A stretch of DNA of 39,441 nucleotides from Opitutaceae bacterium. Its GTDB lineage: Bacteria > Verrucomicrobiota > Verrucomicrobiia > Opitutales > Opitutaceae. The translations under genes were made by a program, and so were the position numbers. Of this stretch, positions 131-19,171 are shown one piece after another. The stretch covers positions 1 to 39,441 of the forward strand of contig JAISGL010000077.1 in the NCBI GenBank assembly GCA_031263125.1, read 5' to 3'. The notes under the pieces were generated by a model that was given only the letters and a program-made list of their open reading frames with translations, was not told the origin of the DNA and did not search any database. Each line of letters begins with the position of its first letter. Positions within the stretch are counted from its first letter, which is position 1.

Positions 131-256
131 CTGATGTTACGCGGACGGCAGATTTCGTAGGGCCTGACCTTGTGTCAGGCCGCAAATTACCAGCGCGGCA
201 TCCCACGCATGCGCGGCCTGACACAAGGTCAGGCCCTACGCACCGCGTCACATCAG
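131..256. repeat. REPIN-type element, copy 1: two inverted GTAG-headed REPs inside TGATGTTACGCG-type terminal inverted repeats
   Basis: CTGATGTTACGCG at 131; GTAG-GGCCTGAC-CTTGT-GTCAGGCC at 157-181; inverse copy at 215-239; GCGTCACATCAG at 245-256. Confidence 0.8.
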
Positions 257-329
257 TTAAATCACTTAAATCGATCCAACTCGACCCAAGCCGGGTGGCG
301 CAAACGCCGCGCGAATGCCTTTCCTGGGA

Positions 330-351
330 GCGCGGGCATCCCTGCCCGCGC
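330..351. repeat. Isolated hairpin repeat GCGCGGGCA-TCCC-TGCCCGCGC preceded by GGGAG
   Basis: Perfect 9-bp inverted repeat with 4-nt loop. Confidence 0.5.
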
Positions 352-496
352 GCCGCCCTGCAAACCGGCTCACTTTGGAGGCGAATTGGAAATAACCGCA
401 AAAATCATCCCTTTGGACGATTTACGCCGGGGGCGGTTTTTTGATATTTTCACAATGTGATCCGATGAGCTTCCGCTCTTATGCGAAACCATCACA

Positions 497-609
497 CAAC
501 CTCCACCTCCCAGCCTCCACCTCCCAACCTCGCCTCCCAACCGCCTCCCAACCTCGCCTCCCAGCCTCACCTCCCAACCGCCACCCTCACTTCTCCTCCA
601 ATCCCACCT
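497..609. repeat. Degenerate C-rich/pyrimidine-rich short tandem repeats (CCTCCCAACCTCG-like)
   Basis: Repeated CCTCCCAACC / CCTCCCAGCC units directly upstream of the autotransporter ATG at 610. Confidence 0.75.
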
Positions 610-3600
610 ATGACAACACTACGCCTGCCTTTGTCCAAGACCGCCCGTCTGACTGCCCTGTTACTGTTCTGCTGCTGCACCCTGCCCGTGGCCCATGCCT
701 TCGAGTGGGTCATTTCACCCACGGGTTCGACCGCGCTGCCCGTCGGAGGCAACACAACCGCAGGCTCCAATTTGATAAAAGACGGTGACATCATCACCCT
801 GTACACGGACCCGACCAGCGGCGGACCGACAGGCCCCGCCGCCCTCGGCAATGCGCTGATCACCTACCAGGACAACGGCGCCCTCACCCCATTCCCCCCG
901 AGCTTCACGATACGCTCGGGCGCCGGCCCCGACGATCCCGATTGGGACGGCACTTGGTACACCATCACCCATAAAAAATCACCGGCGCCGACTAACTTGA
1001 CCAGGGCCATTTCCACCTTCTCCGGCAATTCCACCATTACCCTCGTCAACGTCATTTTTGCCGAAAACATCACGGCAAACGGCTCCGGCGCGGCGATCTT
1101 TTTCGCGGCGGGCAACGCGCAACTCACCGACATGACGACCCTCACCGGCACGGCGATTTTCAGGGGCAACGGCGGCAGCAACAGCGCCATGCTTGGCGGC
1201 GCCATCCACAACGCCGCGGGCCATTTCACGCTTTCCGGCTCGTTCATCTTCGACAGCAACTTCTCCGGGCGCGGTGGCGCGATCAACACCGCCGCCAACG
1301 CCGGCAACGATTACATCCGGGGCGACATCCTGTTTGTATCGAACACCACGCAAACCCTCGGAGGCGCGTTCAACTTCACACAGTATCTGGCGACCTCCAC
1401 GGCTTTTTTTGACGGCAATATCCGGTTCATCGGCAACATGGCCAACAACGGCGGCGCCTTTGCCTCCAACATCGACGCAAACGCCAGCGCGTCCGCCGCG
1501 TGGGTGGTTTTTTCGGGCACGACCCTGTTCAAGGACAATGAGGCCACGGCAAACGGCGGCGCCATCCAGCAAGGCGCCCAGGGTCTGGTCATCGGTGGCA
1601 ACACCACCTTTGACGGCAACAAGGCCGGCGGCCTCGGCGGGGCCATCTACCAGTTCAACAACAAAAGCGGCGTGCAGGTTGCGGGCGGCGCCTTCGTCAC
1701 CCTCGACGCCACGACCGGCGACATTCTTTTCCAAAACAATCTCCATAACACGGCCATGTCCCCCGACGAACACAACGCCATGGTGCTCTATTCCGGAAAC
1801 GCCTATGTGGACGGCGGCACGACGACCGTCACGCTCAATGCCACCGGCGGCAACGTCATCTATTTCCACGACCCCATCGCCGTCTCCGACACGAACGACT
1901 ACGGCGCGCAGCAAGCCTACGTCAACGTCACGCAGACCGGCGACGGCACCGTTTTGTTTGACACCTACCAAAGCGTCATCACCCACACGACCACCCTTCA
2001 ATCGGGCACTTTCCTCCTCACCAACCGCGCCGTCTACGGCGCCTCCAACGACAAAGGCTGGTTCCAAATCGAGGACGGCGCCACGGTTGCCGGAAACGGC
2101 ACGGTGCAGGCCGGTGTCATCGGCTTCGCCGACGGCGCGCGCGTCAACGTGACCGCCGGCGGCACCCTCTCGCTCCTCGCGACCACATTCACCGGCACGG
2201 GTCTGCGCATTTCAGGCCACGGCACGATTGACGGCGCCGGCGGGCCGCCCATCCCCGCCTCGCTGGTAAGCGTCGGCTCCACCGTCTCGGAAATCCCCGG
2301 CGCGTCCGTCGGCGCCAACACCGCGCAAACACTCACCTTCGCCGCCTCGGCGCCCCTCGCGCTCGAAACCGGCGGCACCCTCGCCTTCGACATGTTTGGC
2401 GGCACAACGTCCGATCATCTTTATGCCGACGCGCTCACTTTCACCTCCGGCTCCGCCTTCATCAACCTCACCGGCATGTCGGGCACCTACAACATTCTCA
2501 CCACGCTCAGCTCCACCTTTGCCCCGGGCGATTTCACCATCCTCATCAACGGCTACATCCCCACCCAGCGTTATGCCGCCACCCCCACGATCACACCCTT
2601 CGACGTCGCGGGCAGCGAACTCAGCGTCGAATACGCGACAAAAAACATCAACATCGCCTGGACGGGCGCCGCGCAGGGCGGCATCTGGAGAAACGTGCAA
2701 ACCAGCGACTCCAACTGGACGGACAACGACGCCATCGCCCCCGAGCTGTTCTTCCTGGACGGCGACGGCGTCCTCTTCGACGACACCGCGGCATCCAGGG
2801 ATGTCTCCATCGATGCCGCCGGCGTGGTGGCGACATCGATGACCGTGGCCATCACCACCGGCAACAACTACACCTTTGCGGGATCGGGCGGCATCCGCAT
2901 CAGCAGCACCTTTGCCTTTGCCGGCACGGACGTGACACCCACCGGCAAACTCACCAAAAGCGGCGACGGCGCGCTCAACTTCACCAACACCGGCACGAAC
3001 ACCTTTGAGGACGGCATCGGGATTTCCGGCGGCGCCATCGGCTTCACCCGCGCCGCCCAGCTCGGCGACGGCGGCAACGGCATCCACTTCACCGGTGACG
3101 CCACGCTCCGCGCCAACGCCGCCGGCATCACCCTCGCAAACACCCTCGACGTCGACGCCGGAAAAACCGCCACGCTCGACACCGCCGCAAACACGCTCAC
3201 CTATGCCGGCATCTTCAATCTCAACAACACCGGCACTCTCGCCAAGACAGGCGCCGGCACACTCCGCCTCACCGCCGACAACTCCGCCAGCACCGGCGGG
3301 ACAGTCGTCAGGCAAGGCACGCTCACGCTCGACGGCGCCGATGCCAAAATCGGCGGCAACATCGACATCGCCGCCGGCGCGACCCTCGCGGGCAGCGGCT
3401 CGGCGACTGGCACGGTCAACGCCGGCCCCGGCGCATTCATCGCGCCCGGCGCCTCCAGCCTCACGACGCCCGTCACGCTCAACCTCAACAACCTCAACCT
3501 CGATTCCTCCATCCTGAGCTTCAACCTCTTCTCCACCGGCTCCAACGACACCATCAACCTCGCCGGCGCCCTCACGCTGGCCGGTACCAACAAAATCAAC

Positions 3601-6600
3601 ATCAGCCTGTTCCAGGCCGGCGTCTACAACCTCGGCAACCTCGACGCGCTCGCCGGCGTGGAAGTCACCATTGCGGGCATCGCCCAGGTCGCCGGCGCCC
3701 GCCAGACTGCCGCCGTCGTTGCCGATGGCGGCAACCTCCTGCTCCAAACCGGCGCGGACATATCGCGCGTCCTTCGCTGGACAGGCGCGACCAGCGGCAC
3801 ATGGATTTCATCCGACTCCAACTGGACCGACGGCGGCCCGACCACGCTTTACGCCGGAGGCGACCGCGTCATTTTTGACGACACCGCCCCCGCCGCCTCC
3901 CCGCACGACATCGACATCGCCGGCACCGGCCTGATGGTTTCCGACATGTTTGTGCAAGGCACATCCAGTTACTCTTTCTCCGGCGCCGGCATCACCGCCG
4001 ATCCCGCCAGCATCATATCGGGAGCAGTCATCACCACCGGCTCCGGCAGACTTATAAAGGAAGGCAGCGGCACGCTCGCCTTCACCAACGCCGCCAACAA
4101 TTTCCTCGGCGGCATCGAAATCGACGGCGGCGCGATTACCTTCACGGACGTCGCCCAGCTCGGCGGCGGCGACATCCTCTTCGGCGGCGACGCCGCGCTC
4201 GTCTCGCTCACCGGCGCGCAAACGCTCGCCAGCAACATCACGGTCGCCGCGGGCAAGACCGGCGTCATCGACGCCGGCGCAGGCGATATCGCGCTCTCCG
4301 GTTTGCTCGCCGCCGCCGGCGGATCGGGCACGCTCGCCAAACTCGGATCGGGCATGCTCGCGCTCGCAGCGGACAACACCGCCGGCGCGGAAAATCTCGT
4401 GCTCAATATCGCCGAAGGTTCCCTCCTGCTTGACAACGTCACATTCGCCGGCGCGGTTGACCTTGGCGAAAACACGACGTTCATCGGCGCCGGCGACGCC
4501 GGCACAGTCGGCGCGATGCGCGCGGCCGCCGGTTCCACGGTGCAGGTCAACGCCGGCGAATTGAATATCGGCAGTCTCCAGCTCGCCGGCGGTTCCACGC
4601 TCATCCGATCAGACACCGGGGCAGGCGTGCTTTCCAGCGCGGCCACGCTCGACGGTCTCGTTTCCGCCAGCATCACCGGCGGCACACTCGCGTTCAACGG
4701 CTCTATCAACGGCGCGGGCGGCTTCCTCAAGACCGGCGACGGCGAATTGCAGCTCTCCGGCGCCGCCGCGCTCGGCAACACCGGCGTCACGCAAATCGAC
4801 CAGGGCGCCGTGCGCATCACCGGCATATCCGGCGTCACCGCCCCCACCATTACCGAAAGTGACACCATTCCCGGCATCAACATCGCCGGCACCGTTTCGC
4901 AAAATATCATGCTCAACGGCGGCGACCTCATCTTGTCTTCCGGCACGGGTGCTGACGAGGCCACCGCCAACAACTGGTCCGGCCTGCGCCTCATCCAGGG
5001 CGCCGACTCCGCCGCGAGCACGATATCCGGCGGCAACGAAATCATCCACGTGGGCAGCGGCACGCAGGAGTACGCCATTCTCCAAGGCATCCACGTCGCC
5101 GTGAACGCCGGCAACGACACCGCCGTCCTGGGCAACACCGCCAACAATTTCACCGGCATCGTCCGCGTCGACAGCGGCACGCTCCAGGTCACCGACACCC
5201 TGCAACTCGGCGCGTTCGGCGCCGCGACCACCGCCAAGGTCGCCCTCAACGGCGGCGCGCTCCAGATCAGCGGCACCATCAACACCACCCGCGCCATCGA
5301 GCTTCGCGCCGACGCCACCGTGACGGTTGACGACGACGCAAACTCCCAGTGGAGCGCCATCACCAAACCCGCGGCCTACCCCGCGGCCAGCTTCACCAAG
5401 GCCGGCTCCGGCACGCTCACCATCGCCGGCAACAATCAGGCCACCGGCATGACCGTCGCCGAAGGCCGCTATGTCGCGTTTACGGGCAACAGCGTGAACA
5501 CGAGCGCCACGGTCAGCGTCAGCAGCGGCGCGACATTCGAGTTCAGCGCCACCACCACCGCGAACGGCGGCACGATGGGCTACGTCGGAGGCCAGCTCTT
5601 CGCGAACTCCAGCGCAGGCACGGTGAGCGCCCCCGTTGTTGGCAGCGGCACGTTGGAAATCACCAGGGGCAGACTCGTCTTCACCTCGCCCAACACGACC
5701 ATTGCAAACATCAACATCACGGGCACGGACTCAGCCGTGGTTATCAACAACAACCGCCCCGTGGCCGACTTCTCCCCCAACGGCGCGATCACCGTTGACC
5801 AAGGCGCCCTGATTCTCGCCTCGACCGGCCACAACATCGGCAACGTCGTGCTCAAGGACGGCGCCTCGCTCTCCTTCCTGATGCAGGGCACGCTGGTGGC
5901 GGCGCAGGTGACGGAGACCGGCACCATCCCCGCCTACTTCACGACCAACGGCCAGGGCTTCAAGACCGCCACGCTCGCCTCGCTCACCGCCACGGGCACC
6001 GACGGCAACCTCAACTTCAACACCAACCTCGCCTTGGGCCGCGCCGATCATCTCACGGTCAGCGCCCCGGTTTCGGGCGACTTTGTCATCGGCGTCAACA
6101 ACCACGGCGTCCTCCCCGAAACATATGCCGCGCCCCTCACGCTCCTCACCGCGCCTGACGCCAGCGACGCCACCTTCCACACGCCTCCCGACATTGATGT
6201 CGGCCTCTATAAATATGCCGTCACCACGCAAACCGGCGACGGCAAAATCGGCATTGTTGTCACCGGCACCGGAGCCATGAGCAACTCCGCCTCGCTCATC
6301 AACACCATGGCGGGCGCGCTCCCCCTCAGCTGGTTCGCCGAACTCAACAGCGTCACGCAGCGCATGGGCGAGCTGCACATGGAAACCCGCATCGACGAAG
6401 CCGGTCTCGCCACGTGGGTGCGCGGTTATGGACAGGCGTTGGAGTTCAACCGCAAAGTCAACGGCACGCCGTTCGACGAACGCCAGTTCGCCGTCGAGGG
6501 CGGCGCCGACTACAAATTCGGAGGCACGCCGCACAACATCTACGCCGGCGTTTTCTTCGGCTACGGCGAAAGCGAGCGCGACTATAACGTCGCCGGCGAG

Positions 6601-7218
6601 GGCCGCAACGAAAGCGTCTTTGGCGGCCTCTACGAAACCGTCAGCACAAAAAACGGCTGGTACCTCGACGGCGTGATCAAGCTCAACGGCTTCAAGAACA
6701 CGTTCACCGCCGTCTCCCCGACGGGCGAAACCATGACGGGCGAATACCACAACTGGGCGGCCGGCGGCTCGCTCGAATTTGGCAAATACTGCGACGTCGG
6801 CTTCGGCTGGTATCTCGAACCGCAAATCCAGGGCGCGATCACCGCCATCATGGATTCGCATTACGTGACCAGCAGCGGCATGCAGGTCGAGCTTCGCTCC
6901 GGCACCACCACGCAAGGCCGCGTCGGTTTTATGTTCGGACGCATCTTCCAAACCGGCGCCAACGGTCTCCTCCACGTTTATATCAAAGGCCACGCCGTGG
7001 CGCAGTGGACAACCAACGGCCAGATTTACGTCGTCACCCCGCACGGCGAGCACAAGCGTTACACGCCCACAATCAAGGGCGACCGCCTCGAAGTCGGCGC
7101 GGGCATCGCATGGCGCGCCTCCCGGCGCATGCAATATTTCTTCGATTTTGAAACCGCCGACGCCGATTATTATATAAAACCCTGGGGCGTGAATTTCGGC
7201 ATCCGTTGCAGTTGGTAA
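610..7218 (+). CDS. Giant autotransporter (about 2200 aa): signal peptide, Pmp-like GGAI/FxxN repeats, PATR-type passenger repeats, C-terminal autotransporter beta-barrel
   Basis: Internal ATG at 610 gives signal peptide MTTLRLPLSKTARLTALLLFCCCTLPVAHA (the ORF track starts at 481). Passenger has GGAI, FxxN, and many LxKxGxGTLxLxxxNxxxGGxxxxxG motifs; C-terminal barrel-like region ends ...GVNFGIRCSW. Confidence 0.88.
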   Translation: MTTLRLPLSKTARLTALLLFCCCTLPVAHAFEWVISPTGSTALPVGGNTTAGSNLIKDGDIITLYTDPTSGGPTGPAALGNALITYQDNGALTPFPPSFTIRSGAGPDDPDWDGTWYTITHKKSPAPTNLTRAISTFSGNSTITLVNVIFAENITANGSGAAIFFAAGNAQLTDMTTLTGTAIFRGNGGSNSAMLGGAIHNAAGHFTLSGSFIFDSNFSGRGGAINTAANAGNDYIRGDILFVSNTTQTLGGAFNFTQYLATSTAFFDGNIRFIGNMANNGGAFASNIDANASASAAWVVFSGTTLFKDNEATANGGAIQQGAQGLVIGGNTTFDGNKAGGLGGAIYQFNNKSGVQVAGGAFVTLDATTGDILFQNNLHNTAMSPDEHNAMVLYSGNAYVDGGTTTVTLNATGGNVIYFHDPIAVSDTNDYGAQQAYVNVTQTGDGTVLFDTYQSVITHTTTLQSGTFLLTNRAVYGASNDKGWFQIEDGATVAGNGTVQAGVIGFADGARVNVTAGGTLSLLATTFTGTGLRISGHGTIDGAGGPPIPASLVSVGSTVSEIPGASVGANTAQTLTFAASAPLALETGGTLAFDMFGGTTSDHLYADALTFTSGSAFINLTGMSGTYNILTTLSSTFAPGDFTILINGYIPTQRYAATPTITPFDVAGSELSVEYATKNINIAWTGAAQGGIWRNVQTSDSNWTDNDAIAPELFFLDGDGVLFDDTAASRDVSIDAAGVVATSMTVAITTGNNYTFAGSGGIRISSTFAFAGTDVTPTGKLTKSGDGALNFTNTGTNTFEDGIGISGGAIGFTRAAQLGDGGNGIHFTGDATLRANAAGITLANTLDVDAGKTATLDTAANTLTYAGIFNLNNTGTLAKTGAGTLRLTADNSASTGGTVVRQGTLTLDGADAKIGGNIDIAAGATLAGSGSATGTVNAGPGAFIAPGASSLTTPVTLNLNNLNLDSSILSFNLFSTGSNDTINLAGALTLAGTNKINISLFQAGVYNLGNLDALAGVEVTIAGIAQVAGARQTAAVVADGGNLLLQTGADISRVLRWTGATSGTWISSDSNWTDGGPTTLYAGGDRVIFDDTAPAASPHDIDIAGTGLMVSDMFVQGTSSYSFSGAGITADPASIISGAVITTGSGRLIKEGSGTLAFTNAANNFLGGIEIDGGAITFTDVAQLGGGDILFGGDAALVSLTGAQTLASNITVAAGKTGVIDAGAGDIALSGLLAAAGGSGTLAKLGSGMLALAADNTAGAENLVLNIAEGSLLLDNVTFAGAVDLGENTTFIGAGDAGTVGAMRAAAGSTVQVNAGELNIGSLQLAGGSTLIRSDTGAGVLSSAATLDGLVSASITGGTLAFNGSINGAGGFLKTGDGELQLSGAAALGNTGVTQIDQGAVRITGISGVTAPTITESDTIPGINIAGTVSQNIMLNGGDLILSSGTGADEATANNWSGLRLIQGADSAASTISGGNEIIHVGSGTQEYAILQGIHVAVNAGNDTAVLGNTANNFTGIVRVDSGTLQVTDTLQLGAFGAATTAKVALNGGALQISGTINTTRAIELRADATVTVDDDANSQWSAITKPAAYPAASFTKAGSGTLTIAGNNQATGMTVAEGRYVAFTGNSVNTSATVSVSSGATFEFSATTTANGGTMGYVGGQLFANSSAGTVSAPVVGSGTLEITRGRLVFTSPNTTIANINITGTDSAVVINNNRPVADFSPNGAITVDQGALILASTGHNIGNVVLKDGASLSFLMQGTLVAAQVTETGTIPAYFTTNGQGFKTATLASLTATGTDGNLNFNTNLALGRADHLTVSAPVSGDFVIGVNNHGVLPETYAAPLTLLTAPDASDATFHTPPDIDVGLYKYAVTTQTGDGKIGIVVTGTGAMSNSASLINTMAGALPLSWFAELNSVTQRMGELHMETRIDEAGLATWVRGYGQALEFNRKVNGTPFDERQFAVEGGADYKFGGTPHNIYAGVFFGYGESERDYNVAGEGRNESVFGGLYETVSTKNGWYLDGVIKLNGFKNTFTAVSPTGETMTGEYHNWAAGGSLEFGKYCDVGFGWYLEPQIQGAITAIMDSHYVTSSGMQVELRSGTTTQGRVGFMFGRIFQTGANGLLHVYIKGHAVAQWTTNGQIYVVTPHGEHKRYTPTIKGDRLEVGAGIAWRASRRMQYFFDFETADADYYIKPWGVNFGIRCSW

Positions 7219-7336
7219 ACCGCCCCCAAGGCCAGCGCATATTCCCGTCACACTTAGCACTTAGCCCGTTAGCCCGGCAACCCTTCCCATGTGTCCCTGC
7301 ATCGACAAAATCCCATGCCGCGTAACTGACGCAGCT

Positions 7337-7477
7337 GTAGGGCCTGACCTTGTGTCAGGCCGCAAATTACCTGTGAGCCTCTTGCGCGAGCGCGGCCTGA
7401 CACAAGGTCAGGCCCTACGGCGGCACGCATGGCGGCGGGGGCACGTAGGGCGCGACCTTGTGTCGCGCCGCGCATGG
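7337..7477. repeat. REPIN-type element, copy 2, with an extra variant REP; fused to the 5' end of the downstream TonB-receptor ORF
   Basis: GTAG-GGCCTGAC-CTTGT-GTCAGGCC at 7337-7361, inverse copy at 7394-7418, GTAG-GGCGCGAC-CTTGT-GTCGCGCC at 7445-7469. Similarity to the copy at 15385-15520 runs to about 7477. Confidence 0.8.
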
Positions 7478-10400
7478 CTCCTGTTGACCGGCATGATCAT
7501 AAGCGGCGTCCTTGGCGCACAGGCCGTCGCTCCCGTTTCATTGGAGGAAACCGGTGATTCATCCCCGCCGGTGAAGGTGGAAACGTCAGCCCGGTCAGCT
7601 CCCGCGAAACCCGCCGAAAAAGTGGACGACGAAATCGTCGAACTCTCCCCATTCGTTGTGCAGGCGGGTGATGACGACGGCTACCAGGCCGCCAACACCA
7701 CCAGCGGCAGCCGCCTGAACACCTCCCTCAAGGACACCCCCGCGTCCATCTCGCCCTTCACCGAGGAGTTTCTCAGCGACGTCGGCGCGACCTCCGTCGA
7801 GGACATGCTCGCCTACACGGGAAACTCTGAAGGCGAATTTGAGGACGGCTCCGGCTTCAACGACTCGGCCTCCCGCTGGGCCAACACCACCAGCGGCCGC
7901 TTCCGCATACGCGGCATGAGCGGAAGCTCCTCGCGCGATTTCGTCAACAGCTCCATCCCCAACGACACCTACAACATTGATCGCGCCGAGGTGGCCAGCG
8001 GCCCCAATTCCATCCTCTTCGGCCTGGGGTCGCAGGGCGGCACCGTCCTCCTCTCATCAAAACGCGCCAACACGAGACGAAACACCTTTCGCGTCAAAAA
8101 CATCATGGGCACCTGGGACGGCTTCAGCACCTTGCCCTACGAACGCCTCGAAGCCGACGCAAACCTCGTGCTCATTCCCAGGAAACTCGCGTTCCGCCTG
8201 ATGGCGCTTTATCAAAACTCGGGCAGTTGGATGCGCTATTGGGTCAACGATCAAAAACGCATCTCCCCGGCGCTGACCATAAAACCCTCCAAAAACACCA
8301 CCATCCATCTCAACTACGAGCGCGGTGTTGTCGACGGCAGCACGCGTTTGAACTGGCCCGCCTACGATTCCGTCTCCGGCTGGCTCGCCGCAGGCCGCCC
8401 CCTCGTCAGCAGCCTGACCGCGCCCGTGCTCGGCGCCGCCCCCGCCGGCATGGTCCTGCTCGCTCCGGATAACAACAACGTTGACCACTACGTCTTTAAC
8501 GAAAACGACGGCACCGTTAATAATTACCGCCAGGCCTATGCGGGCGCCAGCCTTCATCCGGACTCAAATAATACAGTCCTCGCATCGCCCTCGCTCCTGT
8601 CCTACCGCGTCAGCACGCTCGGGCCGGGATCGCAGCGCAACCAGACCTTTGAAAGCTGGTCCGCCATCGTCGATCAGCGCGTCGGCGCCTTTGACTTCGA
8701 ACTCGGTTATTATCATAATCACAACGACTCGCAGGTTCTCACGGCCAGCGGCGCCGACGGACGCAGCAGCGGCCTCACCGCCGATCCCAATGTTTATATA
8801 TCAATGCCGGTCTGGAGTTCGCCATCCGATAAAGTCCCCAATCCCCGCGCCGGCCAGCTCTACATGGAGGAACAATGGTACAAAAACACCTTTGATGATA
8901 CAAACAACGTCATCCGCCTCACCATATCCAGTGATATCCAACCCGGCAAAGCGTGGGGACGCCACCGCCTGATGGGCCTTGTCGAACACGCGAAGAACGA
9001 AAGCGTCTTTATACAAAAAAATGAAATCTGGGCCGACGACAATAATGTTGTCATCAACTATAATCCCAACAGCCCCACGCCCGAAGGCAACCAGAACAGC
9101 GTCTGGCGCCGCCGCTACATCACCGAGGGCGATTTCAACACGTATTACGCGGGCGACGGACGCATCCCGACCCCTACCTTCGTCGCGGGCGACAAAACCT
9201 ACCACGGCACTTTTGTCACCCGCAAAAACGCCAGCTATCACACCACGCAGGAGACCAGCTCCTACGCGCTGGCCATCCAAAGTTACTGGTTCAAAAACAG
9301 GCTGATCACCACCCTCGGCGCGCGCATCGACAACCTCAAATTCACCAACGAAAAACAAGCCCGCATCCTCGATCCGAACGACCCGCGAATACTCAGCGGC
9401 GACAAAGTGCTCGGCGAAATGGCATTTTCCGGCGAATATAAAAAAGACAAGTACAAACCCTCCACCTATGCGGCCGGCGCGGTTTGGCACCTCTCGAAAC
9501 ATTTTTCCCTGTTCGGCAATTACAGCACCAACATCGGCCCTCCGCGCTTTGACCGCAACGTGCTGCCCTATGGCGACATCGCGCAGGCCCCCAAGGGCAA
9601 AACGACGGAGGAGGGCATCCTCGTTGACTTCCTCGGCAACGACAAAATCTTCCTCCGCATCACCCGCTTCGACACCCGCCAGCTGGGCGACAACCCCATC
9701 ATCCCGGGCAGCACTGATGCCATAAACTCCGCCCCGCTCGGCAACACGGATGTCATAACCATAAGCACCGCCCTGCATGACGCCGGCCTCATCACCGACG
9801 AACAATATCAATGGGAAGCCGTCGATTTTTCGTTCAATTCAGCCTGCCTGAACACCTATACAAAAGGCTGGGAATTCAGCCTCATCGCCAATCCCACAAA
9901 AAGAATAACATTCTCCGCGGCGGCCTCCTATAGCGATCGCAACCGCTACGACGTATTCTCGGAAGGCTTTGCCTACTTCGGTCAAAAGTTCCCGGAATGG
10001 TTTGCCCTTGCCAATGCGATGCCGGAAAGCGAACAAAAACAAACACTCCTCGACCTCCTCAATGATGAGAAGGTCATTGTTGATGGAAAACTCCAGAGTA
10101 TCGTTAATAATAACAGCGGCCAGATGGGGTCGCGCATGTGGAAAGTCGTTATAAACACCCGCTACAGGTTTCCGGACAACTTCCTGAAAGGCTTCGCCAT
10201 CGGTGGCGCCATGCGTTATCAAAGCGGCCCCGTCATCGCTTGGAACAACACAACGAAGCAAAAGACCATCGGCCAGCAAACGCTCTTCTTCGATGCCTTC
10301 ATAACCTACAGGCGCAAGATTCTGCGCGGAAAGTCCGGCATGACCATTCAGCTCAACATCAGGAATCTGACCAACAGCGACACCGTGACCATGGGCCGGC

Positions 10401-10489
10401 TCGCCTCCGGGGCCGACGACGGAGACACCCACCGCGTTTATCTCAACGAACCCCGCAATATCCGGCTCACCACCACCTTCGATTTTTAA
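7460..10489 (+). CDS. TonB-dependent receptor (Opitutaceae-like, SusD-less type)
   Basis: Plug and barrel features: EIVELSPFVVQAGDDDGYQAANTTSGSRLNTSLKDTPASISPFTEEFL, VASGPNSILFGLGSQGGTV, C-terminus IRLTTTFDF. The start is uncertain: GTG 7460 gives (M)SRRAWLLLTGMIISGVLGAQA, alternatives are TTG 7484 or ATG 7493. The ORF-track start at 7289 lies upstream of the REPIN and is unlikely. Confidence 0.88.
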   Translation: MSRRAWLLLTGMIISGVLGAQAVAPVSLEETGDSSPPVKVETSARSAPAKPAEKVDDEIVELSPFVVQAGDDDGYQAANTTSGSRLNTSLKDTPASISPFTEEFLSDVGATSVEDMLAYTGNSEGEFEDGSGFNDSASRWANTTSGRFRIRGMSGSSSRDFVNSSIPNDTYNIDRAEVASGPNSILFGLGSQGGTVLLSSKRANTRRNTFRVKNIMGTWDGFSTLPYERLEADANLVLIPRKLAFRLMALYQNSGSWMRYWVNDQKRISPALTIKPSKNTTIHLNYERGVVDGSTRLNWPAYDSVSGWLAAGRPLVSSLTAPVLGAAPAGMVLLAPDNNNVDHYVFNENDGTVNNYRQAYAGASLHPDSNNTVLASPSLLSYRVSTLGPGSQRNQTFESWSAIVDQRVGAFDFELGYYHNHNDSQVLTASGADGRSSGLTADPNVYISMPVWSSPSDKVPNPRAGQLYMEEQWYKNTFDDTNNVIRLTISSDIQPGKAWGRHRLMGLVEHAKNESVFIQKNEIWADDNNVVINYNPNSPTPEGNQNSVWRRRYITEGDFNTYYAGDGRIPTPTFVAGDKTYHGTFVTRKNASYHTTQETSSYALAIQSYWFKNRLITTLGARIDNLKFTNEKQARILDPNDPRILSGDKVLGEMAFSGEYKKDKYKPSTYAAGAVWHLSKHFSLFGNYSTNIGPPRFDRNVLPYGDIAQAPKGKTTEEGILVDFLGNDKIFLRITRFDTRQLGDNPIIPGSTDAINSAPLGNTDVITISTALHDAGLITDEQYQWEAVDFSFNSACLNTYTKGWEFSLIANPTKRITFSAAASYSDRNRYDVFSEGFAYFGQKFPEWFALANAMPESEQKQTLLDLLNDEKVIVDGKLQSIVNNNSGQMGSRMWKVVINTRYRFPDNFLKGFAIGGAMRYQSGPVIAWNNTTKQKTIGQQTLFFDAFITYRRKILRGKSGMTIQLNIRNLTNSDTVTMGRLASGADDGDTHRVYLNEPRNIRLTTTFDF

Positions 10490-10528
10490 TAAATATGGTC
10501 AGGGTAAACTTCAGCAACATCCCCTCAC

Positions 10529-13500
10529 ATGCAAACCACACACCCGCACAATAAAAAATGGATACTGTTTCCAGGCGCACTGCTGCTTTCAGCCGCGCTT
10601 GTCGCCCAGCAAGTCGCTCAACCTTCGCTCGAGGACGCGGCCGCTCCACCCGCGCCCCCGATAAAGGTCGAAACCACACCCCGCCCGGCGCTCCCGGCCA
10701 CATCCGGGACGGACGACGATGACATTGTCGAGATGTCCGTCTTCGAGGTGAACGCCGGGAAGGACGACGGCTACTCCGCCGCCAACTCAACCAGCGGCTC
10801 CCGTGTCAACACACCTCTCAGGGACCTCGCCGCCTCCATCTCCGCCTTCACGCCGGAATTTCTGGATGACATCGCCGCCAGCACCATCGACGACATCCTC
10901 AGCTACGCCGGCAACGTCGAGCTTGAATTTGAGGATGCCACCAACGGCTTTAACAACAACGAAACCCGCCGGGCCGGCAACAACAACGAACGCTTCCGTG
11001 TCCGCGGCATCGCCGCCGCCGTGCTGGTTGACGGCGTCAAGACCGCCGTTCCCATTGATGCATATAACATGGGCCGCGTTGAAATTGCCAGCGGCGCCAA
11101 TTCCATCCTTTTCGGCATTGGCGCCCAGGGCGGCGTCGTCACCTGGGCCACCAATCGCGCCAACGCGCGTCGCAACAGGCTCATCATAAGAAACACCATC
11201 GGCACTTGGAGCAGCCCCGCCGTTGACGGCATCCCCAACGAACGTCTTCTGCTGGACTATAATGTCGTCCTCATTTCCAAAAAAATGGCCTTTCGCCTCA
11301 ATGGCCTCTATCAAAACAACGGAAGCTGGCGCTACCGCCAGTTCAACGACGACAAACGCCTCGCCCCCTCCTTCATGGTGAAACCTTTCAAAAACACCAC
11401 CATCCACCTCAGCTATGAAAGCGGACGCCTCCAAAACGCCACCTCACGCTCCTTCAACAGCTACGACGGCTACTCTGCCTGGGATGCGGCCGGGCGCCCC
11501 GTAATGGACGGCTTTGGTTCAGCCTATGCCGTCCCCGGCACCTCCCAGATCAACTCCGGCGGCAACAACCCCAATTATATTTACGTGGACAACAACAGTA
11601 CAATCTATGATTTCCGCCAGGCCTACCAGGCCGTGCAGAGTGGGTCCGGCGACGTCGCTCTCGATCCCGGCATCTCCTCCTTTTATTACAGCACCGTCGG
11701 GCCTGGCGGCGTGCGCGACCAGAAATTCCACGACTACTCGTTCATCATCGAGCAGACCATCGGCAAGTTCAACTTGCAGCTTCAATACACCCACAACCAA
11801 AACGACTCCAGCGCCGTGGCCCCCGGCAATATCCGCTCTGTAATAAAGGGCGACCCCAATCTCTATCTCTCCTCCGTCAACTGGGCCACTGCCACCGGCG
11901 CCACCCTGACCAACCCTTATGCCGGCCAGCTCTACATGCAAGCCAACTGGAACCGCAACGTCAGATTTGAGAAAAACGACGCCCTCATCCTCACCGGCGA
12001 ATACACACTCAACCTCAAAAAATACGGACGTCACCGCATCATCGGCCTCCTCCAATATGCAAAAAACGAACTCAGCAGAAACATCTATGACGAAATCCTC
12101 GTCGACGACAACCAGGTTGCCATCAACAATCCCACCGATCCCCTCAATTCGTATAACAATCTCATCCGCCGCAACTATCTCAACGAGGGGGATTTCACCA
12201 CCTACTACGACGGCGCCTACTCTGGCCCCGTCTCCGGGATTGTCATAGGCGACAAAACCTACCACAGCGCCTGGGTCTCGGAAGACTCGGTCGAGGCTCA
12301 TACAAAAGCATCAATCAAATCATACATGCTCGCCGTCCAAAGTTACTTGTTCCGCGGCAGGCTCGCCACCACCATCGGGGCGCGCATCGACGAAGTCTCC
12401 TTCAAGATGGAACAACCCGGCATAATCGACAACCCCAACGATCCCCGCATCCTCGACAAAAGCCGCGTCCTCTACGACACCTGCCTCGACGGCACCTATG
12501 GTCCCTCCTACAGCATGCAACCCTTCACCTTCAGCGCCGGCGCCGTCTATCACACGCCTTTGTTCTCCGACCGCTTTTCACTCACCGCCAACTACAGTAC
12601 AAACCGCGGCATGCCCTATCTCGACAGCCGCACCGTCCTGCCCACGGGCGGGATTCCCCCGCTCACCGAAGGCAGGACCTTCGACTACGGCATCAGGGCC
12701 GACATTTTTGGCAACAACAAGCTCGTCGCCAGGCTCGTGCGATTCGACACCCAGCAGATGGGTGACGCCACCATCACCCCCAATGGCATCGGCAACGCCA
12801 GCAACGACGCCCTCGGCAGCACCAATCTCTATCGTATCTATGACGCCATGTTTTTCCTCTATCCCACCAGCCTCAATGGCGGCACCAAGCAGGCCAACTG
12901 GGGCAAGGCTCCGGCAGGCGGCTGGCTCCCCGGCACCGGCCCCGGCATGGGTCCCATGCCCGCCGGCATGTATGCCGTCGTTCCCGCATCCGGCAGGTAT
13001 CCCTACGGCACACCGCCCCAATATAATGCCGCCATGGTTGACGTGCAATCACGGGGCTTTGAATTTTCGCTCGCGGGCAGACCTGGCAAAAACATGGAAA
13101 TCCGCTGGGAGTTTTCATACTCCGACCGCAACCGCGAAAAGATATTCCAGGAGATAATCGATTATTATAGCGCCAGCATCGCCGCATGGATGGACATGGC
13201 GGACCCCGCCAAAAACGGAGGCACCACCTATCATGTCACAACCGACACGGCGGGAACCACGCAGGTGACGCTTCAGGATTTTATATGGGATCAATTATAC
13301 GGCCAGCCGCAGCTGAACGGCGACTGCCTCTACGGCGGCACCACCAGTGTCAGGAAAGGTCTCTCCAACAACCTCTACAACCAAACAGGCCGCCTCGGCG
13401 CCCGCCCGTGGAAAACCAACCTTTCCATTCGTTATAATTTTCCCAGAAACACTTTCCTGAAGGGCTTCACCGTGTGGGCCGCCGTGCGTTATCAATCCCC

Positions 13501-13846
13501 CAACTATTATCCATCCGCCGACAATGTGAATCCCAACAATGCGGATGGCTCGCTTCTTCTCACCGATGTGCCCCCGCAAACTGATACTCAGTTTGCTTTT
13601 GACCCCGATGCCTATTACGGCAGGGATATGAGCAAAGGCGCCGCGAATACCTATGTTGACGGCATGATACGCTACACACGCAAAATATTCAAAGGTCGCG
13701 CAACCATGAGCATCCAGCTTAATGTTGCAAATATCTTCGATGCAAACAATGCGGGCGTGGGCCGCCGCAATGCCGACGGCACATTAGCCCGCACCTATAC
13801 AATCACTCCCCGGCAGTTCCGCCTTACCACGACCTTCGATTTCTGA
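10529..13846 (+). CDS. TonB-dependent receptor, paralogue of the preceding gene
   Basis: Signal peptide MQTTHPHNKKWILFPGALLLSAALVAQ; IVEMSVFEVNAGKDDGYSAANSTSGSRVNTPLRDLAASISAFTPEFL; IASGANSILFGIGAQGGVV; C-terminus FRLTTTFDF. Confidence 0.92.
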   Translation: MQTTHPHNKKWILFPGALLLSAALVAQQVAQPSLEDAAAPPAPPIKVETTPRPALPATSGTDDDDIVEMSVFEVNAGKDDGYSAANSTSGSRVNTPLRDLAASISAFTPEFLDDIAASTIDDILSYAGNVELEFEDATNGFNNNETRRAGNNNERFRVRGIAAAVLVDGVKTAVPIDAYNMGRVEIASGANSILFGIGAQGGVVTWATNRANARRNRLIIRNTIGTWSSPAVDGIPNERLLLDYNVVLISKKMAFRLNGLYQNNGSWRYRQFNDDKRLAPSFMVKPFKNTTIHLSYESGRLQNATSRSFNSYDGYSAWDAAGRPVMDGFGSAYAVPGTSQINSGGNNPNYIYVDNNSTIYDFRQAYQAVQSGSGDVALDPGISSFYYSTVGPGGVRDQKFHDYSFIIEQTIGKFNLQLQYTHNQNDSSAVAPGNIRSVIKGDPNLYLSSVNWATATGATLTNPYAGQLYMQANWNRNVRFEKNDALILTGEYTLNLKKYGRHRIIGLLQYAKNELSRNIYDEILVDDNQVAINNPTDPLNSYNNLIRRNYLNEGDFTTYYDGAYSGPVSGIVIGDKTYHSAWVSEDSVEAHTKASIKSYMLAVQSYLFRGRLATTIGARIDEVSFKMEQPGIIDNPNDPRILDKSRVLYDTCLDGTYGPSYSMQPFTFSAGAVYHTPLFSDRFSLTANYSTNRGMPYLDSRTVLPTGGIPPLTEGRTFDYGIRADIFGNNKLVARLVRFDTQQMGDATITPNGIGNASNDALGSTNLYRIYDAMFFLYPTSLNGGTKQANWGKAPAGGWLPGTGPGMGPMPAGMYAVVPASGRYPYGTPPQYNAAMVDVQSRGFEFSLAGRPGKNMEIRWEFSYSDRNREKIFQEIIDYYSASIAAWMDMADPAKNGGTTYHVTTDTAGTTQVTLQDFIWDQLYGQPQLNGDCLYGGTTSVRKGLSNNLYNQTGRLGARPWKTNLSIRYNFPRNTFLKGFTVWAAVRYQSPNYYPSADNVNPNNADGSLLLTDVPPQTDTQFAFDPDAYYGRDMSKGAANTYVDGMIRYTRKIFKGRATMSIQLNVANIFDANNAGVGRRNADGTLARTYTITPRQFRLTTTFDF

Positions 13847-13911
13847 TACATCCGCTTCCAAAACAATCCGCCACGCACCCGCCTCACACGCCACACACCG
13901 ACGCTCACACC

Positions 13912-15348
13912 ATGAAGTTTCCATTCCTCCTCACCGGCGCCGCCGCCTGCCTGCCCGTTGCGACTCTCCACGCCGCCACCGCTCCCGCCACCGCCAGTCC
14001 AAACAATACAAAGCCCCCCAACCTCGTCCTCATCATCGCCGACGATTGCACCCGGCATGACACCGAACTCTACGGCGGGCAGGCCAGGACGCCCAACATG
14101 ATGCGCCTCGCCCGCGAGGGCATGACCTTCTCGAAATGTTATCAAGCCGCCCCCGTTTGCTCTCCCACGCGGCACGCCCTCATGACGGCCAAATATCCCG
14201 TGAAAACCGGCGCGTATCCAAACCACACCTTTGTCAAAAAAGGCATCACCAGTTGGGCGAAATGGTTTCAGGATGCCGGCTGGCGCGCGGGTCTTTCCGG
14301 GAAAAAACATGTCAATCCGGTCAGTACTTTCTGCTTCGAACACGTCATGCCCAAAAACATCGCCAGGGACGACCAGAAAGAGCGCAATCCCGACTTCGGC
14401 GCCGTGGATGTTTTTCTCCGCGATTGCGTGAAAAAAAACGAATCCTTCGGCCTCTTCATTTGTTCCACCGAACCGCATTCGCCGTGGAACAAAGGCGACG
14501 CGTCAAAATATCCCCCCGCCCGGCTCAAGCTGCCCCCGATTTTTGTGGATACGCCCAAAACCCGCGACGCCTATTCGCGATACCTCGCCGAAATCACCTA
14601 CTTCGACGCGCAGGTCGGCGAAATGCTCGCGCTCCTCGACAAACACAAACTCGCCGGCAACACATTGGTCATCGTCCTCACCGAGCAAGGGAACGGCTTC
14701 CCTTTCGCGAAATGGACTTGTTACGATGCCGGCGTTGGCAGCGGCTGCGTCATCCGCTGGCCCGGCCATGTCAAACCCGGAAGCGCCACCGACGCGCTTG
14801 TTGAATATGTCGACATGATTCCGACATTCTGCGATGCCGCCGGTATCAAGACGCCGGACGACCTCGACGGGCGCTCGTTCCTGCCGCTGCTCGAAGGCAA
14901 AACGGACAAACACAAGGATTATGTCTTTTCGATACAAACATCGCGCGGCATCTTTGCCGGTCCCGACTATTATGGCATCCGCACGGTGCGCGACGAACGT
15001 TATCGTTATATACTCAACCTCACGCCCAAGGCGACTTTCAAAAACACAGCGATAAAAACCCCTTGGTACAAGGAATGGACAGCCGCCGCGCGCGCGGGCG
15101 ACGCACATGCCGGGCAGCTCACAAAACGCTACCAGCACCGCCCCGCCGAGGAACTCTACGATTGTGAAAAAGACCCCTGGAACACGCACAACCTCATTGA
15201 CGATCCCGCGCTCAAGGAGCGGACGGCAAACCTGCGCAAGCAACTCGCCGCATGGATGAAAGACCAGGGCGACAAAGGCCAGGCCACCGAAATGGCGGCA
15301 ACGCGGCATCTCTGGAAAAATGCCGGCGGCAACGGCGGCGAAGATTGA
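13912..15348 (+). CDS. Secreted sulfatase (Cys-type, formylglycine-dependent family)
   Basis: Signal peptide MKFPFLLTGAAACLPVATLHA; PNLVLIIADDCTRHDTELYGG metal-site start; CSPTR motif (PVCSPTRHALMTAKYP) matching the sulfatase C-x-P-x-R signature. Confidence 0.93.
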   Translation: MKFPFLLTGAAACLPVATLHAATAPATASPNNTKPPNLVLIIADDCTRHDTELYGGQARTPNMMRLAREGMTFSKCYQAAPVCSPTRHALMTAKYPVKTGAYPNHTFVKKGITSWAKWFQDAGWRAGLSGKKHVNPVSTFCFEHVMPKNIARDDQKERNPDFGAVDVFLRDCVKKNESFGLFICSTEPHSPWNKGDASKYPPARLKLPPIFVDTPKTRDAYSRYLAEITYFDAQVGEMLALLDKHKLAGNTLVIVLTEQGNGFPFAKWTCYDAGVGSGCVIRWPGHVKPGSATDALVEYVDMIPTFCDAAGIKTPDDLDGRSFLPLLEGKTDKHKDYVFSIQTSRGIFAGPDYYGIRTVRDERYRYILNLTPKATFKNTAIKTPWYKEWTAAARAGDAHAGQLTKRYQHRPAEELYDCEKDPWNTHNLIDDPALKERTANLRKQLAAWMKDQGDKGQATEMAATRHLWKNAGGNGGED

Positions 15349-15357
15349 TATTATTAT

Positions 15358-15640
15358 CTGATGTTACGCGAAAGCCAGTTTTTTGTAGGGCCTGACCTTG
15401 TGTCAGGCCGCGCACGCATGGGAGGCCACGCAGGTAATTCGCGGCCTGACACAAGGTCAGGCCCTACGGCACGCATGGCGGCAGGGGCACGTAGGGCGCG
15501 ACCTTGTGTCGCGCCGCGTATGGCGGCGGGGGCGCGATTGGCGGAAACGTCACGCATGGCGGCAGGCGCTGCGCCAAGGGACGCCTGTGGACGTTCGCGG
15601 CCTGACACAAGGTCAGGCCCTACGCGCCACGTAACATCAG
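15358..15640. repeat. REPIN-type element, copy 3, enlarged (four REP units including the GCGACC variant) inside TGATGTTACGCG / GTAACATCAG terminal repeats
   Basis: CTGATGTTACGCG 15358-15370; REPs at 15385-15409, 15443-15467, 15491-15515 (variant GGCGCGAC-CTTGT-GTCGCGCC), 15599-15623; GTAACATCAG 15631-15640. Confidence 0.85.
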
Positions 15641-15655
15641 TTATTATGATGACAA

Positions 15656-16016
15656 CTGATATTACACGGCAGCCAGCTTTAGGTAGGGCGGTCTCGCCGA
15701 GACCGCCGAAGCAAGCCGGAGTCTCGCCGAAGCAAGCCGGAGGCTTGCCAGAAATTAGCCGGTGGTTAAGCGAGGCTTTGCGAGCGACACCACCGGATAT
15801 CATCACAAACAATAACCGCATCCCGGAGGGCTGCCAGAAATCCATGTCACACGCCTCTGGCATCCCTCCGGGATGCGGTGCTTTTTATGTTGGGTTCCGG
15901 TGGTGTCGGTCGCGTTGCGACCTCAACCACCGGCTTATATCTGGCAAGCCTCCGGCTTGCTCCGGCGGTCTCGGCGAGACCGCCCTGCCAAAAAAACCTC
16001 TTCCGCATAACATCAG
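15656..16016. repeat. 361-bp nested palindromic element of the same terminal-repeat family with different inner hairpins
   Basis: CTGATATTACACGG at 15656 and CGCATAACATCAG at 16004-16016; GTAG-GGCGGTCTC-GCC-GAGACCGCC at 15683-15707 and its inverse at 15964-15984; internal IR GCATCCCGGAGGGCTGCCAGA (15818-15838) / TCTGGCATCCCTCCGGGATGC (15856-15876). Confidence 0.85.
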
Positions 16017-16030
16017 ATGATAAAACAAAG

Positions 16031-17140
16031 ATGATAAAACAATATTCACACAAAAGCGCCTGTGCAACCGGTCCGCGGCCCGCCCGGAAACTTTGCCGCC
16101 TTGCCGTATATTATGCGGCGCTGTCCTTCTTTGCCATTGCGCTTCCGCTCTGCGCGCAAGACGCCAAAAACAAATCCGGCGGCGCTGGCAATGCCAGGGA
16201 ACTCAAGGCGGCCCAAAAACCCAAGTCCGACACATGGGCCTTCTCGTTTCTCCCCGCCGGACTCCAGCGCAACCCGCAAGTCGATTTTACCATAATCACT
16301 GAAATGACCGCGGACGGCAAAAAACTGTCACCGCCGTCGTTTGAAAACCCGGTGTATTATATTTCGCATTCAGTCGGCCAGCACGACGTGGGCGACAGTT
16401 ACGGCGGGACAAAACCGATCCATTACAAATATCTGGAGGATCAGCTCAACCGCGCCCTTGCCTCCAATGGCTACCGCCTTGCCGGCGCGGAACACCCGGC
16501 CACCCAGGTGCTCTTCATAGCCTGGGGCATGCATAACAGGGTCGTGGCAGCCGAGGACATGGACGACGGCGGCGGCGAGGGCGAGGGCGAAGGTTCCGAT
16601 GATGCCGGTGACGAGCGTCACTATGTTGTGGATTCGGAAGACATACAAAACCTCCTCTCGCGCGCAAAAGTCGTGGGCGGGCAGAAATTCGCGGACGAAT
16701 TTGCCGGCGCGCTTTCCGATCAGCTTGATTGGACCACCAATCTCCGCGCCAAGGGTCCGCTCAGCCGCTTCGCCGAGCGCGATGACCTCACTGAAACGCT
16801 CGTGGAGCAAATTTTCGATGATTGTTATTATCTCCTCGTCACGTCTTTCGAGGTGGAGGCTCTCAAGCGCAACGAGAAAAAAATCCTCTGGACGACAAAA
16901 ATATCAACGACCGCGCGCGGCATTTCCTTCGAGGCGACGATTCCCAACATGATTGAAAACGGCGCCTATTATTTTGGCCGCGAAATGACCGTGCCCGACA
17001 TCGTCAGAAAACGCGCCAGCAAAAAAGGCACGGTTGAAATCGGCGAGGCAACGGTGCAGGAATATTACATGCCCGGCACGGCGATTCCCTCCGGCACGAC
17101 TTCACCCTCGACCAGCGGCTCCTCAGCCGGCAAACCTTGA
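16031..17140 (+). CDS. Secreted protein of unknown function
   Basis: ATG 16031 gives MIKQYSHKSACATGPRPARKLCRLAVYYAALSFFAIALPLCAQD, a signal-peptide-like N-terminus. Coding continues colinear with galM at a 23-bp gap. No family recognised. Confidence 0.72.
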   Translation: MIKQYSHKSACATGPRPARKLCRLAVYYAALSFFAIALPLCAQDAKNKSGGAGNARELKAAQKPKSDTWAFSFLPAGLQRNPQVDFTIITEMTADGKKLSPPSFENPVYYISHSVGQHDVGDSYGGTKPIHYKYLEDQLNRALASNGYRLAGAEHPATQVLFIAWGMHNRVVAAEDMDDGGGEGEGEGSDDAGDERHYVVDSEDIQNLLSRAKVVGGQKFADEFAGALSDQLDWTTNLRAKGPLSRFAERDDLTETLVEQIFDDCYYLLVTSFEVEALKRNEKKILWTTKISTTARGISFEATIPNMIENGAYYFGREMTVPDIVRKRASKKGTVEIGEATVQEYYMPGTAIPSGTTSPSTSGSSAGKP

Positions 17141-17163
17141 TAATCCATTGATAAACACATCCC

Positions 17164-18312
17164 ATGAAACATAAATATCGCAACGCCTTCACCGGCGCGC
17201 TCCTCAGCATCACCACCGCGGCCTCACTCGCCGCGGCGCAACCGGTCATTACCATGACATCATTCGGCACACTGCCCGACGGGCGCTCCGCCCAGCTCTA
17301 CACACTCGCCAACTCCCAGGGCGCGAAAGTGTCCATCACCAACTACGGCGGCATCGTCACGCACATCATTGTGCCCGACCGCGAGGGCCGCATGGCCGAC
17401 GTCGCGCTTGGTTACGATATGGTTGAAAAATACGTTGCCGGCTCGCCCTATTTCGGGGCGCTCATCGGACGTTACGGCAATCGCATCGCCGGCGGAAAAT
17501 TCACCCTCGATGGCAAAACCTACACACTCCCCACCAACGATGTTCCGGGCGGTGTCCCCTGTTCGCTCCACGGCGGCAAGACCGGCTTCGACAAAGTCCT
17601 CTGGGACGCCACCCCGCTCCTCGCCAGTGATGCCGCCGGCCTCAAACTCCGCCACCTCAGCAAGGACGGCGAGGAAGGCTACCCCGGCAATCTCGACGTG
17701 ACTGTCACGTATTGGTTTAACAACAAAAACGAACTGCGCATCGAATACAGCGCGACCACCGACAAAGCCACCCCGGTCAACCTCACCAACCACTCCTATT
17801 TCAACCTCGCCGGCGAAGGCGCCGGCACGATTCTTGATCACATCCTTACGCTCAATGCCTCCAATTACACACCGGTTGACAAGGGCCTGATCCCCACCGG
17901 AAAAGTCACTCCCGTGTCAGGCACCCCGTTCGACTTTACCACGCCGCATGCCATCGGGGAGCGCGTGAATACTGTCGATGAGCAACTCAAGTTTGGCGGC
18001 GGTTACGACCACAACTTTGTGCTCGATCGCACAGGCAAGGGACTCGTCAAGGCCGCCGAGGTTTACGAACCCGTATCGGGCCGCGTGATGGAAATCCTCA
18101 CTGAGGAACCCGCGATTCAATTTTATTGTGGCAACTTTCTCGACGGCACGAATGTCGGCAAAAGCAACTGCCCCTACACGTATCGCACCGGCATCGCCCT
18201 GGAGACGCAGCACTCGCCCGACTCGCCAAACCAACCGGCGTTCCCAAGCACAATCCTCCGCCCCGGCCAGCGCTACGAAACCGCAACCCTATATCGCTTC
18301 TCCGCCCGCTAG
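17164..18312 (+). CDS. galM: Aldose 1-epimerase (mutarotase), with signal peptide
   Basis: ITNYGGIVTHIIVPDREGRMADVALGYD, FGALIGRYGNRIAGGKFTLDGKTYTLPTND, LHGGKTGFDKVLWDA, NLTNHSYFNLAGEG: characteristic GalM sequence blocks. Confidence 0.94.
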   Translation: MKHKYRNAFTGALLSITTAASLAAAQPVITMTSFGTLPDGRSAQLYTLANSQGAKVSITNYGGIVTHIIVPDREGRMADVALGYDMVEKYVAGSPYFGALIGRYGNRIAGGKFTLDGKTYTLPTNDVPGGVPCSLHGGKTGFDKVLWDATPLLASDAAGLKLRHLSKDGEEGYPGNLDVTVTYWFNNKNELRIEYSATTDKATPVNLTNHSYFNLAGEGAGTILDHILTLNASNYTPVDKGLIPTGKVTPVSGTPFDFTTPHAIGERVNTVDEQLKFGGGYDHNFVLDRTGKGLVKAAEVYEPVSGRVMEILTEEPAIQFYCGNFLDGTNVGKSNCPYTYRTGIALETQHSPDSPNQPAFPSTILRPGQRYETATLYRFSAR

Positions 18313-18355
18313 AACAGAGAGCACAGCGCGGCGAAGCCGCAACCAAAGGAACAGG

Positions 18356-18594
18356 CCCAAGCCAACAATCCAATTGCCACAAAAAACACAAAAAAAGCCT
18401 CTTCGCATATGACGTCTCCCGTGCGCTTATAAGCGCCGCGAACCGGTTTCCGGCAAAATATGATTTTGCAGGAAAGGAGACCGCAGCACCTATAGGCGCT
18501 CTGTTGATTACCGAAAGCACACAACGCCTTTTTGTCAGGCCACTCGCCAAACCTCGTAGAGTGTTTTTTGTGGCAATTGGTTTGTTGTTTTGGG
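18356..18594. repeat. MITE-like inverted-repeat element (239 bp), 34-bp terminal inverted repeats with a perfect 20-bp core
   Basis: CCAATTGCCACAAAAAACAC (18370-18389) and exact reverse complement GTGTTTTTTGTGGCAATTGG (18561-18580). Extending outward to 18356 and 18594 gives about 31/34 matches. Confidence 0.8.
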
Positions 18595-18603
18595 TGAGTC
18601 GCG

Positions 18604-18859
18604 TCATAGGGAAATCATACGCAAAAAAATCAATGCTCAAGGTTAGTAGCACGGATTATCACGGATAAGAAAAAGACTGGTCGAGTGCCTGGTTTTATCC
18701 GTGTAAATCCGTGTAATCCGTGGTTAATTTATTGGTTTGGTTTTTAAACTGTTTTTCAAAGTGCCCTAAAGACGTTTTTCCTTAATTAAAATAACCATAT
18801 TATTATTACTTTATTTCTAAACTTAAAAATTGATTTTTTTGCGTATGCTTTCCCTATGA
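18604..18859. repeat. Second MITE-like inverted-repeat element (256 bp), about 43-bp terminal inverted repeats
   Basis: TCATAGGGAAATCATACGCAAAAAAATCAAT... (18604-18646) versus the reverse complement of 18817-18859, TCATAGGGAAAGCATACGCAAAAAAATCAAT...; 5 mismatches in 43. Confidence 0.8.
18650..18723. repeat. CACGGAT-type iterated hairpin repeat
   Basis: CACGGATTATCACGGATAAG ... TTATCCGTGTAAATCCGTGTAATCCGTGG. Confidence 0.7.
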
Positions 18860-18880
18860 GCCAACCCAATCCAAGCCAAC

Positions 18881-18950
18881 TCACCACGGAGAACACCGGA
18901 GACACGGAGTCAAAAGCATTTCTCCGTGTTCTCCGTACCCTCCGTGGTGA
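18881..18950. repeat. CACGGAG-type iterated hairpin repeat
   Basis: TCACCACGGAGAACACCGGAGACACGGAG (18881-18909) pairs with CTCCGTGTTCTCCGTACCCTCCGTGGTGA (18922-18950). Confidence 0.8.
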
Positions 18951-18958
18951 ATTAATAA

Positions 18959-19090
18959 CTGATGTTACGCAGCGCGGCTCCGTAGGGCCTGACCTTGTGT
19001 CAGGCCGCGAATTACCAGTGTGGCTTCTCACGCATTCGCGGCCTGACACAAGGTCAGGCCCTGCAAAATCCGCTGGTCGCGTAACATCAC
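18959..19090. repeat. REPIN-type element, copy 5 in TGATGTTACGC / GCGTAACATCA terminal repeats
   Basis: CTGATGTTACGC at 18959-18970; REP at 18982-19006; inverse REP at 19040-19064 (head variant CTGC); CGCGTAACATCAC at 19078-19090. Confidence 0.85.
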
Positions 19091-19171
19091 TTAATAATCA
19101 TTCCATCTTTGGTTGCGGCTTCACCGCGCCGGAATAGTTGACGTAATCTGGAATTGAGCGGCATGAATTTA

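Follow-up and report, generated by a model that had tools for sequence, protein, structure and literature searches.

The window analysed here is a stretch of 39,441 nucleotides from the draft genome of an Opitutaceae bacterium (G000; 3.9 Mb in 489 contigs, 66% complete). It contains GTAG-headed hairpins of two types and copies of a short element with CTGATG ends, MITE1, in which such hairpins are enclosed. The first-type REP unit reads GTAG-GGCCTGAC-CTTGT-GTCAGGCC and is present in nine copies within the window. The second-type unit, GTAG-GGCGCGAC-CTTGT-GTCGCGCC, is present at positions 7445 and 15491. The features are listed below, with the strand where one was assigned.

131–256: MITE1 copy with the ends CTGATGTTACGC and GCGTCACATCAG around a REP doublet (157–181 plus, 215–239 minus); no clear target duplication
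157–181, plus strand: REP unit GTAG-GGCCTGAC-CTTGT-GTCAGGCC, exact match
215–239, minus strand: REP unit, inverse partner of 157–181, exact match
7337–7418: REP doublet (7337–7361 plus, 7394–7418 minus); enclosing ends decayed, no TIR at up to 2 mismatches
7445–7469, plus strand: second-type unit GTAG-GGCGCGAC-CTTGT-GTCGCGCC, exact match
15351–15357: target-site duplication TTATTAT, left, 7 bp, flanking the 283-bp MITE1 copy
15358–15640: 283-bp MITE1 copy containing three first-type units and one second-type unit
15385–15467: REP doublet in the 283-bp copy (15385–15409 plus, 15443–15467 minus), exact match
15491–15515, plus strand: second-type unit GTAG-GGCGCGAC-CTTGT-GTCGCGCC in the 283-bp copy, exact match
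15599–15623, minus strand: first-type REP unit in the 283-bp copy, exact match
15641–15647: target-site duplication TTATTAT, right, 7 bp, flanking the 283-bp MITE1 copy
15656–16016: tentative related element with decayed ends, a different GTAG hairpin at 15683 (GGCGGTCTC-GCC-GAGACCGCC) and the near-duplication ATGACAA/ATGATAA
18952–18958: target-site duplication TTAATAA, left, flanking the 132-bp MITE1 copy
18959–19090: 132-bp MITE1 copy with a REP doublet (18982–19006 plus; 19040–19064 minus, head GCAG)
19091–19097: target-site duplication TTAATAA, right, flanking the 132-bp MITE1 copy

All nine GGCCTGACCTTGTGTCAGGCC units of the window (161–181, 215–235, 7341–7361, 7394–7414, 15389–15409, 15443–15463, 15599–15619, 18986–19006 and 19040–19060) are exact, against an average of 0.01 in shuffled sequences. 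Every unit named in the initial annotation is present, except that the head of the unit at 19040, given there as GTAG, is GCAG. The paired units form inverted doublets 57–58 bp apart. At up to three mismatches, 676 first-type units were found in G000 and none in the reversed control, compared with 19 units of the second type; 65 first-type copies are present at the same threshold in G046, the complete genome of another genus of Opitutaceae. REPs normally occur as inverted doublets, which are termed REPINs. The hairpins of the window combine a GTAG head (GTAG or GTGG being typical of this REP class) adjoining a GC-rich palindrome with a high copy number in both genomes, and two inverted REPs a short distance apart were seen in 48 doublets of the G000 sample and 42 of G046. 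The REP architecture proposed from head and hairpin is thereby borne out, with the addition that the units are arranged as REPINs. The matches listed for the exact REP also include named Opitutaceae, another member of the Verrucomicrobia and one Lentisphaerae assembly. The exact 25-base REP was seen once each at L183 (Lentisphaerae), L182 and L188, with no adjoining CTGATG ends. Two more GTAG hairpins, belonging to other REP-like families, lie at positions 6–28 and 51–73 of the window (CACGGGCA-TCT and AGCGGGCG-TCC).

A RAYT gene flanked by the same hairpins, which the initial annotation led one to expect, is present in G046. The cognate RAYT of this genome is about 187 aa long, with one full-length match, and scores 84.3 bits against the NCBIfam REP-transposase cut-off of 80. 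It is flanked by GGCCTGAC and GGCGCGAC units upstream and by GGCTCGAC and GGCCTGAC units downstream. Homologues sharing 48% identity in the alignment are encoded in G002 and G051, which belong to the same genus as the window; there, doublets of the sister REP GTAG-GGGCGCAC-CTTGC-GTGCGCCC (about 35 units per genome) stand on both sides of the gene. The PDHxH motif and the tyrosine are conserved in the homologues, in agreement with the HUH motif, catalytic tyrosine and profile that characterise a RAYT. The search for the cognate RAYT gave no match in G000; as this assembly is only 66% complete, the gene may sit in the missing part. Among the 42 PF01797 matches in G000, the large group encodes an IS-like protein of 345 aa whose GTAG flanks are not consistent. 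This Y1/HUH protein of about 37 copies was rejected as the cognate RAYT, since it falls below the REP-transposase cut-off and its GTAG hairpin flanks are inconsistent. Its copies (L002–L020 and L051–L068) carry a conserved AGGGACAG motif directly upstream, and some hold MITE1 in their 3′ region. Another RAYT-like gene, at L177 of G051, is flanked by GTAG-GGCGGTTTC-GCC, a near-match to the hairpin at 15683 of the window, which suggests that the genus has a second REP/RAYT pair.

The two stem halves were originally described as changing together around a conserved loop. This holds across the relatives, where the evidence is broad; in the window, which has only two stem types, the covariation amounts to one discrete switch. 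Both variable pairs are complementary in 97 of 99 units of G046 (shuffle mean 40.4, maximum 53), and four stem types have a GTAG head and a CTTGY loop in common. In 17 distinct unit sequences drawn from four genomes, 25 cells changed on both sides compared with 8.3 in shuffles. The search pattern had fixed the head, both the outer and the inner pairs of the stem, and the greater part of the loop; only stem positions 3–6 and two loop bases therefore give an unbiased test, and the invariance elsewhere is partly by construction. G000 again shows a single switch, from CTG to GCG; none of the other 28 non-Watson-Crick cells is compensated, which is what passive carriage by a MITE would lead one to expect. 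Broad covariation emerges only when the relatives are added.

The correction of quasipalindromes is a known mutational process, and the stem types might have arisen by such mechanical correction of imperfect palindromes, through template switching at hairpins, instead of by selection for a folded recognition structure. The small number of discrete stem types and the lack of compensation in all G000 changes other than the GCG type speak for this explanation, which we consider a real but minor possibility. However, from one genus to another the RAYT relatives have different stem types but an unchanged head and loop. In assays of the TnpAREP proteins of Stenotrophomonas and Marinomonas, specific loop bases are essential and the stem sequence is moderately important, and a stem mismatch is harmful in both systems, with reduced cleavage (PMC8266576). 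The conserved loop and pairing of the present REPs fit this group 3 TnpAREP biochemistry. Correction and selection for pairing can also act together. Since the hairpins are real, their stems covary and a RAYT is flanked by them on both sides in the relatives, the REP/RAYT reading of the repeats is right as to their origin.

What that reading missed are the inverted repeats that enclose the hairpins. In the alignment of the G000 copies, conservation extends 17–30 bp past the GTAG on each side, up to the inverted ends CTGATGTTACGC...GCGTAACATCAG. The exact 12-mer end occurs 715 times in G000. Of 60 further genomes of the family, most have it once or not at all; it is more frequent in G046 (19), G005 (34) and G053 (41). 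The REP-holding elements are mostly 125–127 bp long, about 126 bp, with 12-bp ends. Exact target duplications of 7–9 bp with the consensus TTANNAA flank 22 of 42 two-ended copies, where about 0.2 would be expected from swapped flanks; approximately half of the two-ended copies are without a detectable duplication. In the G000 loci, picked largely for containing REPs or Y1 genes, one or both CTGATG ends accompany 46 of 48 sampled doublets, and the spacing of the hairpins is 57–58 bp in 45 of the 48. Filled and empty paralogous sites were seen in one multicopy gene family. The REP-enclosing 126-bp element is a MITE: it is short, bears terminal inverted repeats and is flanked by target duplications. 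The inverted ends, the size and the 7–9 bp duplications point to the movement of a MITE and not to a movement of the RAYT type. The initial view that a RAYT spread the copies in the window's genome is disfavoured by their position inside a TIR-bearing MITE with 7–9 bp duplications and by their fixed spacing.

We infer the transposase class of MITE1, as a search of about 0.8 Mb of fetched sequence turned up no autonomous element with CTGATG ends and exact duplications. The sole match of this search, a 425-bp CTGATG-ended case, was discarded as too short for a transposase gene. By-eye inspection of the unpaired CTGATG ends in the complete genome G005 revealed interiors consisting mostly of hairpins and decayed sequence.

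Two ways of spreading can be seen side by side in G046. There, 27 of the 42 doublets are bare REPINs (L151–L253) with spacings of 27–103, and two different stem types are combined in 24 of these 27. Five doublets lie inside the CTGATG MITE, with a spacing of 58–60 and identical stems in four. Seven more are enclosed by a second, unrelated MITE with the ends GAGCATTTCCTATTTATTCTG, spaced by 39 in six cases; a TA is found at the right of all copies checked of this element and at the left of most. Copies of it enclosing a REP doublet were noted at L151, L154, L158 and L159. The remaining doublets have one end only. G000 and G046 share the captured doublet in recognisable form, spacer included. 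The presence of this doublet in both genera, together with the two modes, indicates that a REPIN was captured by a MITE and then spread with it in the window lineage.

We therefore propose, with high confidence, that REPINs were captured by MITEs and spread as their cargo in the window lineage. The hairpins are REPs, single strands folded into hairpins that bear a GTAG head; a RAYT (Y1 HUH) transposase recognises them, reading the sequence of head and loop but chiefly the pairing of the stem. In the window lineage, a doublet of two GGCCTGAC units 58 bp apart would have entered the interior of the 126-bp MITE with the ends CTGATGTTACGC/GCGTAACATCAG. A transposase acting in trans on these ends, probably of the DDE type, would then have distributed MITE1 to hundreds of sites; DDE chemistry is attributed to MITE1 from general knowledge of target duplication. 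If the spread proceeded through the MITE ends, the REPs hitch-hiked and the RAYT was no longer needed. The second MITE of G046 would have captured another doublet independently.

It could be argued that a RAYT spread the G000 copies and that the inverted repeats around them are incidental, given that bare REPINs are common in G046, that the RAYT of this genome is flanked by the same REPs, and that a sister REP flanks the RAYT homologues of G002 and G051. This is improbable, as the conserved G000 unit reaches 17–30 bp beyond the GTAG to exact inverted ends with 7–9 bp duplications, the spacing in G000 is fixed, and the cognate RAYT was not found in the 66% complete G000. Target duplication is not known for HUH Y1 transposition. 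An ordinary MITE whose internal palindromes have nothing to do with REPs or RAYTs would agree with the TIRs, duplications and size, but is hardly credible because the same GTAG hairpins stand on both sides of the G046 RAYT gene and are also found bare in that genome, a REPtron that contradicts it.

Capture by MITE1 may have gone beyond one REP family. Most of the 156 CTGATG ends sampled in G000 are followed by a hairpin within about 20–33 bp, the types being GGCCTGAC (about 80), CGCGGGCA (about 13), GCAGGCT-GCCA (9) and GGCGGTCTC (3). In G005 and G053, CTGATG elements have REP-like hairpins of other kinds in their interior; one of these, GGGCTTCGC-TT, is the type that flanks the RAYT of G053. 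No fewer than four hairpin families of G000, as well as further ones in G005 and G053, lie roughly 20–33 bp inside the same ends. It is conceivable, though we find it doubtful, that the CTGATGTTACGC-ended MITE recurrently takes up the REP family of its host in a standing partnership between MITE and REP/RAYT, the GTAG-type hairpins aiding transposition. If this were true, folded hairpins of this type just inside the ends would help the MITE to transpose.

The copy numbers of REPs are usually credited to RAYTs. Capture by TIR/TSD MITEs is a second, unrelated route, which appears to account for most copies in G000, and G046 displays both routes together with a second capture by another MITE. The system offers a natural means to separate RAYT action from hitch-hiking, and REP abundance alone is no evidence of RAYT activity. 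The present repeats share with the REPINs and REPtrons of Pseudomonas and Stenotrophomonas (Bertels and Rainey 2011, PMC3116915; Nunvar et al. 2010, PMC2817692, and 2013, PMC3686654) the GT[AG]G head, the GC-rich palindrome, the inverted doublets, a RAYT flanked by cognate REPs and the divergence of REPs at related RAYTs with pairing kept. Unlike the free REPINs of those genera, the G000 doublets form the interior of a TIR/TSD MITE. Opitutus terrae, a related member of the Verrucomicrobia, is reported to show a high enrichment of GTAG repeats belonging to several families, and the TIRtrons of Pseudomonas are described as hundreds of composites that join degenerate GTAG-1 units to unrelated palindromes (PMC3733652). 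In its account of these two cases, that source describes no REP doublets enclosed by a MITE with target duplications. With TIR/TSD MITEs such as MITEAba12 (PMC6382973), MITE1 shares the short non-coding form, inverted ends, target duplications and many copies. Unlike in MITEs of that kind, the interior of MITE1 consists of RAYT-type REPs, and the REP-like families found between its ends differ from genus to genus.
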